Assembly: GCF_018811945.1 (NCBI RefSeq)
Contig: NZ_JACRVU010000003.1
Span: 124,001 to 188,000 of the forward strand
Origin: Gluconobacter sp. P1C6_b
GTDB taxonomy: Bacteria; Pseudomonadota; Alphaproteobacteria; Acetobacterales; Acetobacteraceae
Length of the DNA: 64,000 nucleotides
Direction: 5' to 3'
Shown here: piece by piece, positions 5,922 through 56,860 of the stretch
Numbering within the stretch: the stretch's first letter is position 1
Layout: each line of letters begins with the position of its first letter
The notes under the pieces: generated by a model
Told to the model about the DNA's origin: nothing
Seen by the model: only the letters and a program-made list of their open reading frames with translations
The model's database searches: none
Made by a program: the position numbers and the translations under genes

Positions 5922-5978
5922 GAGAGAGGTCGTCCTAAAAGTTTAACGAAAAACGTCGATGAATATGTCAGGCGCGGA

Positions 5979-6356
5979 TTAGCGCGTGACCTTCTTCTTG
6001 CCGGCAATCGCCACGGCCTTGCCCTTGCGGGTACGGGCATTCGTGTGCGTGCGCTGACCGCGGACCGGCAGGCCACGACGGTGACGAAGACCACGGTAGC
6101 AACCGAGGTCCATCAGACGCTTGATATTCATTGCGGTCTCGCGACGGAGGTCGCCTTCAACGCGCAGTTCGGAATCGATCAGCTCGCGGATCTTCACGAT
6201 CTCATCGTCAGACAGCTCGTTGACGCGCTTGGCATCGGGGATTTCGAGCTTGCTGCAGATTGACTGCGCCGTCGACGGGCCGATGCCGTAGACATAACGC
6301 AGGGCAATGACGACCCGCTTGTTGGTCGGAATGTTTACGCCGGCAATACGTGCCAC
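5979..6356 (-). CDS. rpsM: 30S ribosomal protein S13 (GTG start)
   Basis: The protein begins [14 protein letters not shown], the invariant start of S13, and continues with the helix-turn [12 protein letters not shown] and the basic tail of the family. S13 lies in the head of the 30S subunit and contacts the P-site tRNA and L5. I use the GTG at 6354-6356 as start, giving 125 residues. It has GGGAG eight bases upstream, and this places the conserved ARIAG directly after the initiator. An ATG 15 bases further upstream overlaps that ribosome-binding site and would add five unrelated residues. It is first in the alpha operon, and a promoter is visible at 6507-6534. Confidence 0.95.
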
Positions 6357-50724: not shown

Positions 50725-51030
50725 TGGTGTCCGCGAGAGGATTCGAACCTCCGGCCCCAGGATTCATACCACTTCGGTTTTCACCGCCATGCCCGGAGGC
50801 ATGTTCGTGGTCTGGACTGTCTCTTCACCATGGCCTGAAAGCCAAGGTGTCGCCCGTACAGTCTCTACACCTTCTTGCCGGCACGCCGGAAAGCTTGGCT
50901 CGGGATTGGCACGATCGAGATGATCAGAGCGTTCCCCGAATTTGAGCGAATCCACCATGCGGTTTCCCATCATGGCGCCCAATTCAAAACCTTAGGAATC
51001 CTGTGCTCTATCCTGCTGAGCTACGCGGAC
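50725..51030 (-). tRNA. tRNA-Arg(CCU), interrupted by a group I intron
   Basis: Two halves on the minus strand fold together into one tRNA. The 5' exon (51030-50994, 37 nt) holds acceptor strand GTCCGCG, the D-arm and half the anticodon arm up to CAGGATTCCT. The 3' exon (50764-50725, 40 nt) starts AATCCTGGGG and includes the T-arm (GGAGG-TTCGAAT-CCTCT), acceptor strand CGCGGAC, discriminator A and an encoded CCA. Joined, they give the anticodon arm CAGGA-TTCCTAA-TCCTG with anticodon CCU, so the tRNA reads AGG. The break is after the anticodon's last base (position 36), a known group I insertion site. Without splicing there is no functional product, so it should not be called a pseudogene. Confidence 0.93.
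50765..50993 (-). ncRNA. Group I intron (IC3-like) inside tRNA-Arg(CCU)
   Basis: The 229-nt insert begins right after the U of the anticodon and ends in G, as group I introns require. It has ordered core elements: a P2 with a GGGAAAC loop, CAAATTCGGGGAA near P3, GAGCCAAGCTT in the P4/P6 region, a P6a pair CCGGC/GCCGG, AAGGTGTAGAGACT with ACAGTCCAGA for P7/P3, a P8 of CACCTTGGC with GCCATGGTG, and P9 stems CATGCC/GGCATG and CGGT-GAAA-ACCG. These segments closely match the Azoarcus tRNA-Ile intron as I remember it. No ORF is present, so it has no homing endonuclease. The P1 pairing (CCU with an internal GGG) is my least certain assignment. Confidence 0.92.
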
Positions 51031-54262: not shown

Positions 54263-56860
54263 ATGAGCGATACCACAGCCCCCGCATTCGATTTCCAGAA
54301 CCGCGAACCGTTCTGGCAGAACGAATGGAAGCGGCGGAATACCTTTGCGGTCCCGGATGTTCCCCCGGCCGATCGTCCGAAATATTATGTGCTGGAGATG
54401 TTCCCGTACCCATCGGGACAGCTTCATGTCGGACATGTCCGAAACTACACGCTCGGGGATGTGGTCGCGCGTTACAAGCGGGCCCGTGGGTTCGCTGTCA
54501 TGCATCCTATGGGATGGGACGCGTTCGGTCTGCCGGCGGAAAATGCCGCCCGTGAACGCAATGTTCATCCTGGCAAGTGGACAATGGACAACATTGCCAC
54601 CATGCGGGGTACGCTGCAGCGTCTGGGTTTCTCGCTGGACTGGGACCGTGAAATCGCGACCTGCCTGCCGGAATATTACGGCAAGCAGCAGAAGCTGTTC
54701 ACCGACATGCTGGCCGCCGGTCTAGTCGAGCGGCGTGACTCTCTGGTCAACTGGGATCCGGTCGACGAGACGGTTCTTGCGAACGAGCAGGTCGTGGACG
54801 GGCGCGGCTGGCGCTCGGGAGCGCTGATCGAGAAGAAGAAGCTCTCCCAGTGGTTCCTGAAAATCACGAAATTCGCTCAGCCCCTGCTCGATGATCTGAA
54901 GACGCTTGATCGCTGGCCCGAACGCGTCCGGACCATGCAGGAGCGCTGGATCGGCCGTTCGGAAGGTGCGCGAGTCCGCTTTGCGCTGTATCAGCCGCCC
55001 GCAGGTTATGACGAGGATCTCGATAGCGTCGAAGTCTTTACAACGCGTCCCGACACCCTGTTTGGTCTGAGCTTCATCGGAATTTCGGCGGAACATCCGC
55101 TGGCCCGCAAGGTTGCGGAAAGCAACCCGCAGGCCGCTACCTTCATTGAAGAATGTCGCCGTCTCGGGACGTCCGAGGAAGTGATCGAAGCTGCCGAGAA
55201 ACGCGGGTTCGACACGGGCCTGCGGGTAGCCAATCCGCTTGATCCCGAAAAGACGGCACCTGTCTGGATCGCCAATTTCGTCCTGATGGATTACGGCACC
55301 GGCGCTGTTTTCGGCTGCCCGTGTGGCGATCAGCGCGATCTCGACTTTGCCCGCAAATACGACCTGCCGGTACCGCAGGTTCTTCTGCCCCCGGGGCAGG
55401 ATGCCGAGACCTTTGTCCTGGGCAAAAAAGCGGTTTCGGGCGAGGCGACCCTGTTCAATTCGGGTTTCCTGGATGGGCTGGCCCCTGCTGCGGCGCGGAC
55501 GAAAGTCATTGAGCGTCTTGAAGGTCTGGGGGCAGGCAAGGGTGTCGTGAACTGGCGCCTGCGCGACTGGGGCATTTCCCGGCAGCGCTACTGGGGCTGC
55601 CCCATTCCCATCATTCATTGCGACACCTGCGGTCCGGTTCCGGTGCCGGATGAGCAGCTTCCCGTCATCCTGCCGGAAGACGTGACATTTGACCGTCCCG
55701 GTAATCCGCTCGATCACCATCCGACCTGGAAGCACGTCAACTGCCCGCATTGCGGCAAGCCTGCGGTTCGCGAGACCGATACGTTCGATACGTTCGTTGA
55801 CAGTTCCTGGTACTTCGCCCGCTTCACCAGCCCGCATGCCGAGACCCCGACGGTTCCGGCCGCTGCCAATGGCTGGCTTCCGGTCGACCAGTATATTGGT
55901 GGCATCGAGCATGCGATCCTGCATCTGCTCTATGCGCGTTTCTTCACTCGCGCGATGCATGAAACCGGGCATCTGGATGTGGACGAGCCGTTTGCCGGCC
56001 TCTTCACCCAGGGCATGGTGACGCATGAGAGCTACCGCGATGAGAGTGGCTGGCTGTATCCCGAAGAGGTCGAACGGCAGGGCGATCAGGTCGTGCGCCG
56101 TGAGACGGGAACACCGGTTCAGATCGGCCGCTCGGAAAAGATGTCCAAGTCCAAGCGCAACACGGTGTCTCCGGTCGACATCATCGAGCGTTATGGCGCG
56201 GATACGGCCCGCTGGTTCGTTCTCTCCGACAGCCCGCCCGAGAGAGACATGGAATGGACGGCCGCAGGTGTTGCCGCTGCTGCCCGCTTTGGCCAGAGAC
56301 TGCATCGTCTCGTGGCCTCCGTGGCAGCACGGGATGCAGCCGACAGTGCGCATGGTGCGGCGGGGGATGACCTGCGTCGGGTCACGCACCGGACCATTGC
56401 CGCCGTCGGTGAAGCCCTTGAAGCCTTTACGCCGAATGTTGCCGTGGCCCGTCTGCATGAGTTGACCTCGGCTCTGGCGGAGGCCGAACGCATCGAAGGC
56501 GCCGGCATTGCCGCTGCGCGCCGTGAGGCAGCACGCGTGCTGTGCCTGCTGACCGCTCCGATGATGCCCCATCTTGCGGAAGACATGATGGCGGTTCTGG
56601 AGCCGGGCAGTGCGCTGGTTGTGGAGCGTCCCTGGCCGGAAGCCGAAGAAAAATGGCTGGCCGTGCAGAGCGTGACGATCGGTGTGCAGATCCTTGGCAA
56701 GCTGCGCGGAACCATTGAGGTTCCGCCCGATGCGCCGAAAGAAGACGTGCTGGCCGCAGCGAAGAGCGAGCCGAACGTGGCCCGTCTGCTTGAAGGAAAA
56801 CGGCTGGTGAAGGAAATCCATGTTCCGAACCGGATCGTCAATTTTGTGGTGGCGGGCTGA
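54263..56860 (+). CDS. leuS: Leucyl-tRNA synthetase
   Basis: This 865-residue class I synthetase charges tRNA-Leu. It has the HIGH-type motif [18 protein letters not shown] near residue 45, the editing domain with [12 protein letters not shown] and [20 protein letters not shown], the zinc-like [10 protein letters not shown] and [18 protein letters not shown] clusters, [14 protein letters not shown] (KMSKS loop), and the C-terminal tRNA-binding part. The ATG at 54263 gives the usual start. The frame is open 17 codons upstream inside the DUF3576 gene. Its stop overlaps the lptE start. Confidence 0.98.

Follow-up and report, generated by a model that had tools for sequence, protein, structure and literature searches.

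What interrupts the tRNA-Arg(CCU) gene in this stretch of Gluconobacter DNA, and is the interruption a new element or a member of a kind already known? When introns were allowed, ARAGORN called a tRNA-Arg(cct) of 77 bases with an intron of 229 at c[50725,51030] in the window, by which we mean the whole 64-kb stretch of DNA that was analysed. Without intron support it returned 0 tRNAs across the same 64 kb, as a sequence-only reading of this DNA had predicted for tRNA finders of that kind. The gene is laid out as follows.

51030-50725, minus strand: tRNA-Arg(CCU) gene, 77 nt plus the intron (306-nt precursor); ARAGORN with introns allowed
50994..51030, minus strand: 5′ exon, 37 nt, with the anticodon CCU (bases 34-36) at its end; ARAGORN with introns allowed
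50765..50993, minus strand: group I intron, 229 nt, terminal G (omega-G) at 50765; Rfam RF00028 and ARAGORN
50725..50764, minus strand: 3′ exon, 40 nt, from A37, with CCA encoded; ARAGORN

The intron lies after anticodon base 36, with U as the final letter of the 5′ exon ahead of the splice site, and its coordinates, length, insertion point and terminal G in the ARAGORN call are all those that the sequence-only reading had given. The same reading had named a group I intron and suggested running Infernal and a tRNA caller on the locus, and the two programs agree: cmscan against Rfam placed RF00028 (Intron_gpI) at 50995-50792 on the minus strand with 51.4 bits, barely above the gathering score of 50 bits, an E value of 3.9e-10 and the full model length (1-253/253), and ARAGORN recovered the tRNA, of canonical form once its intact exons are joined. 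This was the sole Rfam match in the whole window at gathering thresholds, and it places the intron in RF00028 by the curated threshold and over the whole model. The minus-strand stretch 51030-50725 is thus a tRNA-Arg(CCU) gene interrupted by a group I intron. No recognisable endonuclease gene lies in the intron, which the same reading had described as free of ORFs: none of the five ORFs (≥60 aa) that overlap it gave a Pfam match at E 0.01. Elsewhere in the window, at c[15974,16926], ARAGORN set to long introns also called a tRNA-Phe(aaa) whose intron would be 862 nt long, in sequence resembling a ribosomal protein operon; we judged this call false because Rfam has no group I match there at gathering thresholds.

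The structure of the intron was drawn from P1 to P10 on the window sequence and followed through a MAFFT alignment of 143 of the 145 dereplicated related introns, the two longest (L051 and L228) being left out. Its elements are listed below, with the changes and pairing seen in these 143 introns.

50978..50996, minus strand: P1, exon CCU (50996-50994) with the internal guide GGG (50980-50978), U.G at the splice site; paired in 143/143, partly by construction, the exon being a search condition and the named loci having been chosen by a pattern that contains the guide
50762..50983, minus strand: P10, AUU ahead of the guide (50983-50981) with bases 1-3 of the 3′ exon, AAU (50764-50762); from the alignment
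50954..50976, minus strand: P2 hairpin with a GAAA loop; 5/6 pairs double-changed
50850..50949, minus strand: P3, 50949-50944 with 50855-50850, a pseudoknot crossing P7; 3/6 pairs double-changed, 100% paired
50899..50940, minus strand: P4 (50940-50935 with 50904-50899), enclosing the short P5 hairpin (50930-50909); from the alignment
50870..50898, minus strand: P6 and P6a; P6a with 7/7 pairs double-changed and 86.9% paired
50815..50863, minus strand: P7, 50863-50859 with 50819-50815; invariant where both letters exist
50826..50849, minus strand: P8; 6/7 pairs double-changed, helix 83% paired
50768..50811, minus strand: P9 with hairpins P9a and P9b (GAAA loop); 14/15 pairs double-changed

Standard pairs fill 94.3% of the 9,210 cells of this fold, 42 of its 66 pairs have changed on both sides, and 0 of 500 shuffles reached any of five measures. 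When the partners were slid by 1-3 columns as a control, pairing fell to 30-41%, a comparison that favours the drawn structure over its slid versions, since it was drawn on the window intron, itself one row of the alignment; the changes on both sides of a pair are not explained by that origin. P3, P5 (6/6 pairs changed on both sides), P6a and P8 covary, and P4 and P7 are near-invariant, conserved and thereby beyond the reach of covariation. Pairing is not uniform along the helices: in P4 five of the six pairs are invariant and the outer one fails in 56/143 introns, the distal pairs of P8 fail in up to 80/143, and the middle pair of P10 fails in 17/143, its outer two in 0/143. RNAalifold, run on the same alignment, gave 60 pairs, 40 of them double-changed, and independently recovered P2, P3, P4, P6a, P8 and P9; it paired the guide with the 3′ strand of P7 because it cannot draw a pseudoknot. 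Free-energy folding is uninformative by itself (-87.3 kcal/mol, z -2.37, 4/200 shuffles as low, for a 229-nt stretch one base off the intron), and the strong evidence is comparative.

The pseudoknotted P3-P7 core, P4-P6 and P8, backed by compensatory change, are those of a group I intron, as are U36, the guide GGG and the terminal G at 50765. A protein-spliced tRNA intron of the archaeal type was set aside because this fold is complete and because no archaeal-type tRNA splicing enzyme is known from bacteria. Anatomy and conservation are what we observe here, and from the homologous intron of Bartonella we infer that the window intron splices. The 306-nt precursor would be transcribed and the intron would then fold, the guide GGG pairing with the anticodon CCU to form P1. 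A guanosine held in P7, which we take to be the expected guanosine-binding helix, would attack the 5′ splice site after U36; the freed U36 would in turn attack after the terminal G of the intron, with P10 aligning the 3′ exon, and the products would be the joined 77-nt tRNA and the free intron.

To which introns is this one related? The junction after base 36 together with the guide GGG marks the Arg(CCU) lineage, and the window intron has both. This junction is shared by 219 of the 279 loci gathered in our searches, among them loci in Bartonella, Azospirillum, Rhodobacter and Mesorhizobium records; the 219 loci amount to 182 different introns, some loci being one place under two names. The searches required a G before AATCC at the 3′ splice site and a fixed 5′-exon motif, and the terminal G and exon U found in 219/219 are therefore there by construction. 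Named records contributed at least 119 stretches, from Bartonella, Phyllobacterium, Mesorhizobium, Aurantimonas, Aureimonas, Rhodobacter, Azospirillum, Skermanella, Magnetospirillum and many Acetobacteraceae, these counts being lower bounds. Across the class, RF00028 matched in 31 of 385 genomes, four of them from Acetobacteraceae, and the 26 new loci from outside the family include 12 that parse as tRNA-Leu(UAA), 0 as Arg(CCU) and 8 without a parse.

Related introns interrupt other tRNAs as well: they parse into tRNA-Leu(UAA) and Arg(UCU) after base 34, Lys(UUU/CUU) after base 35, and Thr(GGU) and Asn(GUU) after base 36, by an automatic procedure that parsed 37 of the 56 loci other than Arg(CCU), some of them doubtfully, and gave no answer for 19. 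Within the Acetobacteraceae we noted Asn(GUU), Thr(GGU), Arg(UCU) and Leu(UAA) introns (L016, L017, L071, L085, L090, L091, L123, L133 and others), and one genome of the window's genus carries a second group I intron (L050, G020:C19:12414-13012) that parses as tRNA-Lys(UUU) after base 35. In a loose search, triplets that fit the exon recurred as GAG for Leu, GCC for Thr(GGU) and GAC for Asn, as against GGG for Arg(CCU); such a test is often met by chance, and for that reason no statistics rest on the triplets. When 99 intron cores, stripped of the guide, were placed on a tree, the target labels needed 7 changes, as compared with a minimum of 5 and a shuffled mean of 24.8; the Arg(CCU) label needed 3 (shuffled mean 23.2) on the same tree, in which 48 of 96 branches are unresolved and from which 6 of the 32 listed non-Arg(CCU) introns were left out, their core motif being missing. 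The label Acetobacteraceae or other requires 14 changes (least possible 1; shuffled mean 32.6, minimum 25), and 8 within the Arg(CCU) rows alone. Target and host signals are both present in the core tree, the target signal lying closer to its minimum, and lineages tend to keep their tRNA, crossing now and then between host families. The 219 loci with one junction, taken with the sister introns that interrupt tRNA-Leu, Lys, Thr, Asn and Arg(UCU), make it possible to ask how a guide adapts when the anticodon is a new one, and what then tends to hold each lineage to one tRNA.

Group I introns are carried by the tRNA-Arg(CCU) of Agrobacterium tumefaciens and the tRNA-Ile(CAU) of Azoarcus, both introns being small and in the anticodon loop like that of the window, with which we compared them by description. 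The closest studied member that we found is BbgpI of Bartonella bacilliformis, an intron in the same host tRNA, which was reported in 2020 to splice in vivo and to self-splice in vitro (PMC7717549). Its splicing is experimental, whereas that of the window intron is predicted from homology. Introns of other Bartonella species could be aligned and have the site, the guide GGG and the core in common with the window intron, two of them being 68.4 and 69.8% identical to it; B. bacilliformis is outside that alignment. The BbgpI report traces the family to Agrobacterium and later to other Alphaproteobacteria, citing a 1999 survey whose title, as given in its reference list, speaks of sporadic distribution, horizontal transmission and transposition among alpha-purple bacteria (PMC7717549). 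Closer to our host, the tRNA(Arg) of Asaia bogorensis NBRC 16594, an acetic acid bacterium of the same family, was described in 2015, in a table footnote without structure or boundaries, as split by a group I-like sequence (PMC4596401). An intron from the GTDB genus of A. bogorensis (L077) is 77.5% identical to that of the window.

These cases bear on two further claims of the sequence-only reading: that the intron, being in an acetic acid bacterium, would add a lineage to those known, and that the ribozyme may be a new subtype. The published Asaia case leaves the former unsupported (PMC4596401), and the tRNA-Arg(CCU) family had been described before, with splicing in B. bacilliformis (PMC7717549). 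As for a new subtype, the window intron aligns end to end with introns of several alphaproteobacterial orders, and the Arg(CCU) label changes only three times on a poorly resolved core tree. A new subtype or lineage was rejected as unsupported, on the Asaia and Bartonella cases, the alignment and the core tree. IC3 introns are described as lacking the P5a-d extension (PMC11835236), and in the window intron P5 is a single 22-nt hairpin (50930-50909) with no such extension; RF00028 is generic as to subgroup. The window intron almost certainly belongs, as a self-excising element of the small tRNA type (IC3-like), to the group I family known from tRNA-Arg(CCU) in Alphaproteobacteria. Since the Asaia and Bartonella cases are published, the kind is already known, and its occurrence is ordinary for Alphaproteobacteria.

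A search by title for group I introns with Acetobacteraceae or Gluconobacter, in which few subscription journals were covered, found no earlier report for the genus. What this analysis adds is the presence of the intron throughout the sampled genus, its frequent nearness to leuS, an intact copy of the gene beside leuS in one relative, and the near-exclusive alleles of the family. The annotation is also corrected, the split gene being missed by ARAGORN without introns and often by the generic Rfam model under strict filters. The same difficulty was met with BbgpI, whose host tRNA-Arg(CCU) was unannotated and was found by tRNAscan-SE only after removal of the intron (PMC7717549); tRNAscan-SE 2.0 was, by its authors' own account, not designed for detecting such introns (PMC8450103).

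How long has the intron been in this genus? GTDB unites Gluconobacter and Neokomagataea in the genus of the window's genome, and all 26 genomes searched in it have an RF00028 match (E 7e-9 or better; 8 above the gathering score) and the exact Arg(CCU) exon junction at the same site. They include Gluconobacter vitians, frateurii, albidus, kanchanaburiensis, morbifer, thailandicus and aidae and Neokomagataea thailandica. Identity to the window intron drops to 75.8% among 17 other aligned introns of the genus, with the fold kept.

In the family the intron is patchier. RF00028 matched at E 0.001 in 117 of 397 sampled genomes and 37 of 102 genera, with 24 genomes above the gathering score, and 103 of the loci L001-L133 from the genus and family searches are Arg(CCU) introns by exact junction, one example being L081 in the family genome G172. 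By exact patterns, 70 of 200 family genomes have the split Arg(CCU) signature, 59 have an intact tRNA-Arg(CCU), 72 have neither, and both occur in one genome only (G039, contamination 7%). The split and intact alleles are near-exclusive in the family. One of the 72 (G090) has a split gene that the pattern missed (L051), and the split count of 70 is therefore a lower bound. Among the 70 pattern-positive genomes, 30 had no RF00028 match under strict filters, and it follows that the stricter RF00028 search undercounts.

The neighbourhood of the gene includes leuS.

54263..56860, plus strand: leuS, leucyl-tRNA synthetase (ORF, named from sequence), often near the split tRNA in the acetic acid bacteria examined

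In 21 of the 26 family genomes examined, no more than 4 kb separates the split tRNA from leuS; in the other five it is on a different contig or at a distance. The tRNA-Arg(CCU) gene of G054 is intact and only 0.8 kb away from leuS, which makes it an empty site in this neighbourhood; of the 12 intact-gene genomes the other 11 have the gene on a different contig or far from leuS by coordinates, though in G124 and G180 the two may be near each other across contig ends. Of 27 splits, 6 are common to the LeuRS and intron trees of 30 genomes, against a mean of 0.22 and a maximum of 3 in 500 label shuffles, and the six sampled members of the genus form one group in both, with support of 0.96 for LeuRS and 0.86 for the intron. 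LeuRS and intron distances have a rank correlation of 0.40 in the family (1/2,000 permutations as high) and 0.28 over all 30 genomes (13/2,000). It appears that the intron was already present in the ancestor of the genus, if not before, and that it is inherited with the gene. A purely vertical history for the whole family held only in part when tried with LeuRS: with 6 of 27 splits shared and a modest correlation, the deeper history of the intron is not simply vertical. The comparison of trees thus makes the intron old in the genus and partly inherited with the host, its deeper history being less clear.

That residence bears on whether the intron could instead be a mobile element that arrived recently. 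Related introns do occur on plasmids and in one phage record, and the Arg(CCU) lineage spans several orders, with host labels changing 14 times, and 8 times within Arg(CCU) rows alone. But the introns of the genus form one group, the split gene keeps its place near leuS in 21/26 family genomes, introns of like hosts still cluster (14 label changes where shuffles average 32.6), and the ORFs overlapping the intron show no endonuclease domain. We regard a recent arrival as very unlikely, and an old resident of the known Arg(CCU) family as the better account.

Does this resident still yield a tRNA, and does the host need it? The host assembly (3.39 Mb, 78 contigs, 99.99% complete) has a single RF00028 match and 44 tRNA matches to RF00005, the split gene not among them; ARAGORN typed all 44. 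None of these 44 other tRNAs has a CCU anticodon, the tRNA-Arg types being ACG (twice), CCG and UCU according to ARAGORN. The 44-tRNA list (L134-L173) also lacks tRNA-Ile(GAU) and tRNA-Ala(UGC), probably because they belong to unassembled rRNA operons, where these tRNAs often lie and which drafts omit. No tRNA-Arg(CCU) other than the split gene was found in the assembly, whose tRNA list looks incomplete; given the two missing tRNAs, a second CCU gene in an unassembled stretch stays conceivable. The codon AGG is rare in the window: a rough count over 31 long, unannotated ORFs that do not overlap gives 48 AGG among 15,716 codons. As tRNA-Arg(UCU) can read AGG through wobble, the tRNA-Arg(CCU) gene may be dispensable.

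It is conceivable on these grounds that the intron has decayed and no longer splices, the tRNA-Arg(CCU) being dead and AGG, which is rare, being read by the intact tRNA-Arg(UCU). The 72 of 200 family genomes with neither allele by exact patterns would fit such a loss, their tRNA being perhaps dispensable or merely diverged. Decay is nonetheless exceedingly improbable in our view: exons and core are kept in 26/26 genus genomes, and the helices stay paired through double changes, the fold holding down to 75.8% identity. The opposite proposal is that the intron splices and is kept because it benefits the host, perhaps by gating the supply of tRNA-Arg(CCU) in response to GTP or Mg2+. It draws on the 0 losses in 26/26 genus genomes, on the lack of a second gene copy in what was found of the window's genome, and on the existence of intact alleles elsewhere in the family, but this pattern is also what simple vertical descent with rare, precise losses would give, the distribution in the family is patchy, and the promoter-like (0) and terminator-like (1) sites in a consensus scan do not exceed those in shuffles. 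We think such a benefit unlikely, and we likewise give little credence to its stronger wording, that the intron of the genus is a retained control point and not a tolerated parasite, with AGG decoding tracking the GTP/Mg2+ state. If true, it would explain the zero loss in the 26 species-level genomes searched, and the only tRNA-Arg(CCU) found would depend on a guanosine-dependent ribozyme.

Introns of the same type turned up on plasmids. In pCTX-M3 (NC_004464.2; L320, about 5,947-6,245), and also in L321 and L322, an unannotated tRNA-Leu(UAA) is interrupted by a group I intron some 221 nt long, which RF00028 matches with 36.8 bits (E 2.1e-7), below the gathering score; the tRNA identity was read from the exons, ARAGORN calling it a stop tRNA. 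In two of the three plasmids examined the neighbours of the split tRNA are an AAA-family ATPase gene and aac(3)-IId; near it in the third, the annotation shows only an AAC(3)-IId prediction. In L322 (CP033563.1) a 'hypothetical protein', probably spurious, is annotated over the intron at 1151-1378. A 351-base probe of the split tRNA-Leu(UAA) matches 1,280 of 72,556 plasmid records, 1,257 of them over at least 80% of its length, and 635 of 5,426 complete E. coli genomes, and among the titles listed in a literature search none looked like a report of it. Similar introns in Alphaproteobacteria hint at where the plasmid module may have originated. A plasmid of Tritonibacter mobilis (NZ_CP015231.1; L323, 1501-1710), a 1.26-Mb replicon without annotation, has a group I-like intron of ~250 nt; the interrupted gene resembles, by eye, a tRNA-Thr(UGU) and is called Ile(tat) by ARAGORN.

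A 2014 review stated that the phage introns observed until then were all in protein-coding genes (PMC3984707). The search for related introns found one of 50,697 phage records, that of a 595-kb uncultured phage (LR756511.1; L324), where ARAGORN called no tRNA at the site. An ORF at 943-1512 of this locus encodes an HNH endonuclease (Pfam PF01844, E 8.4e-6), and behind it, at about 1,500-1,660, we recognise by eye the 3′ half of a tRNA-type group I intron followed by a tRNA-Leu-like 3′ end.
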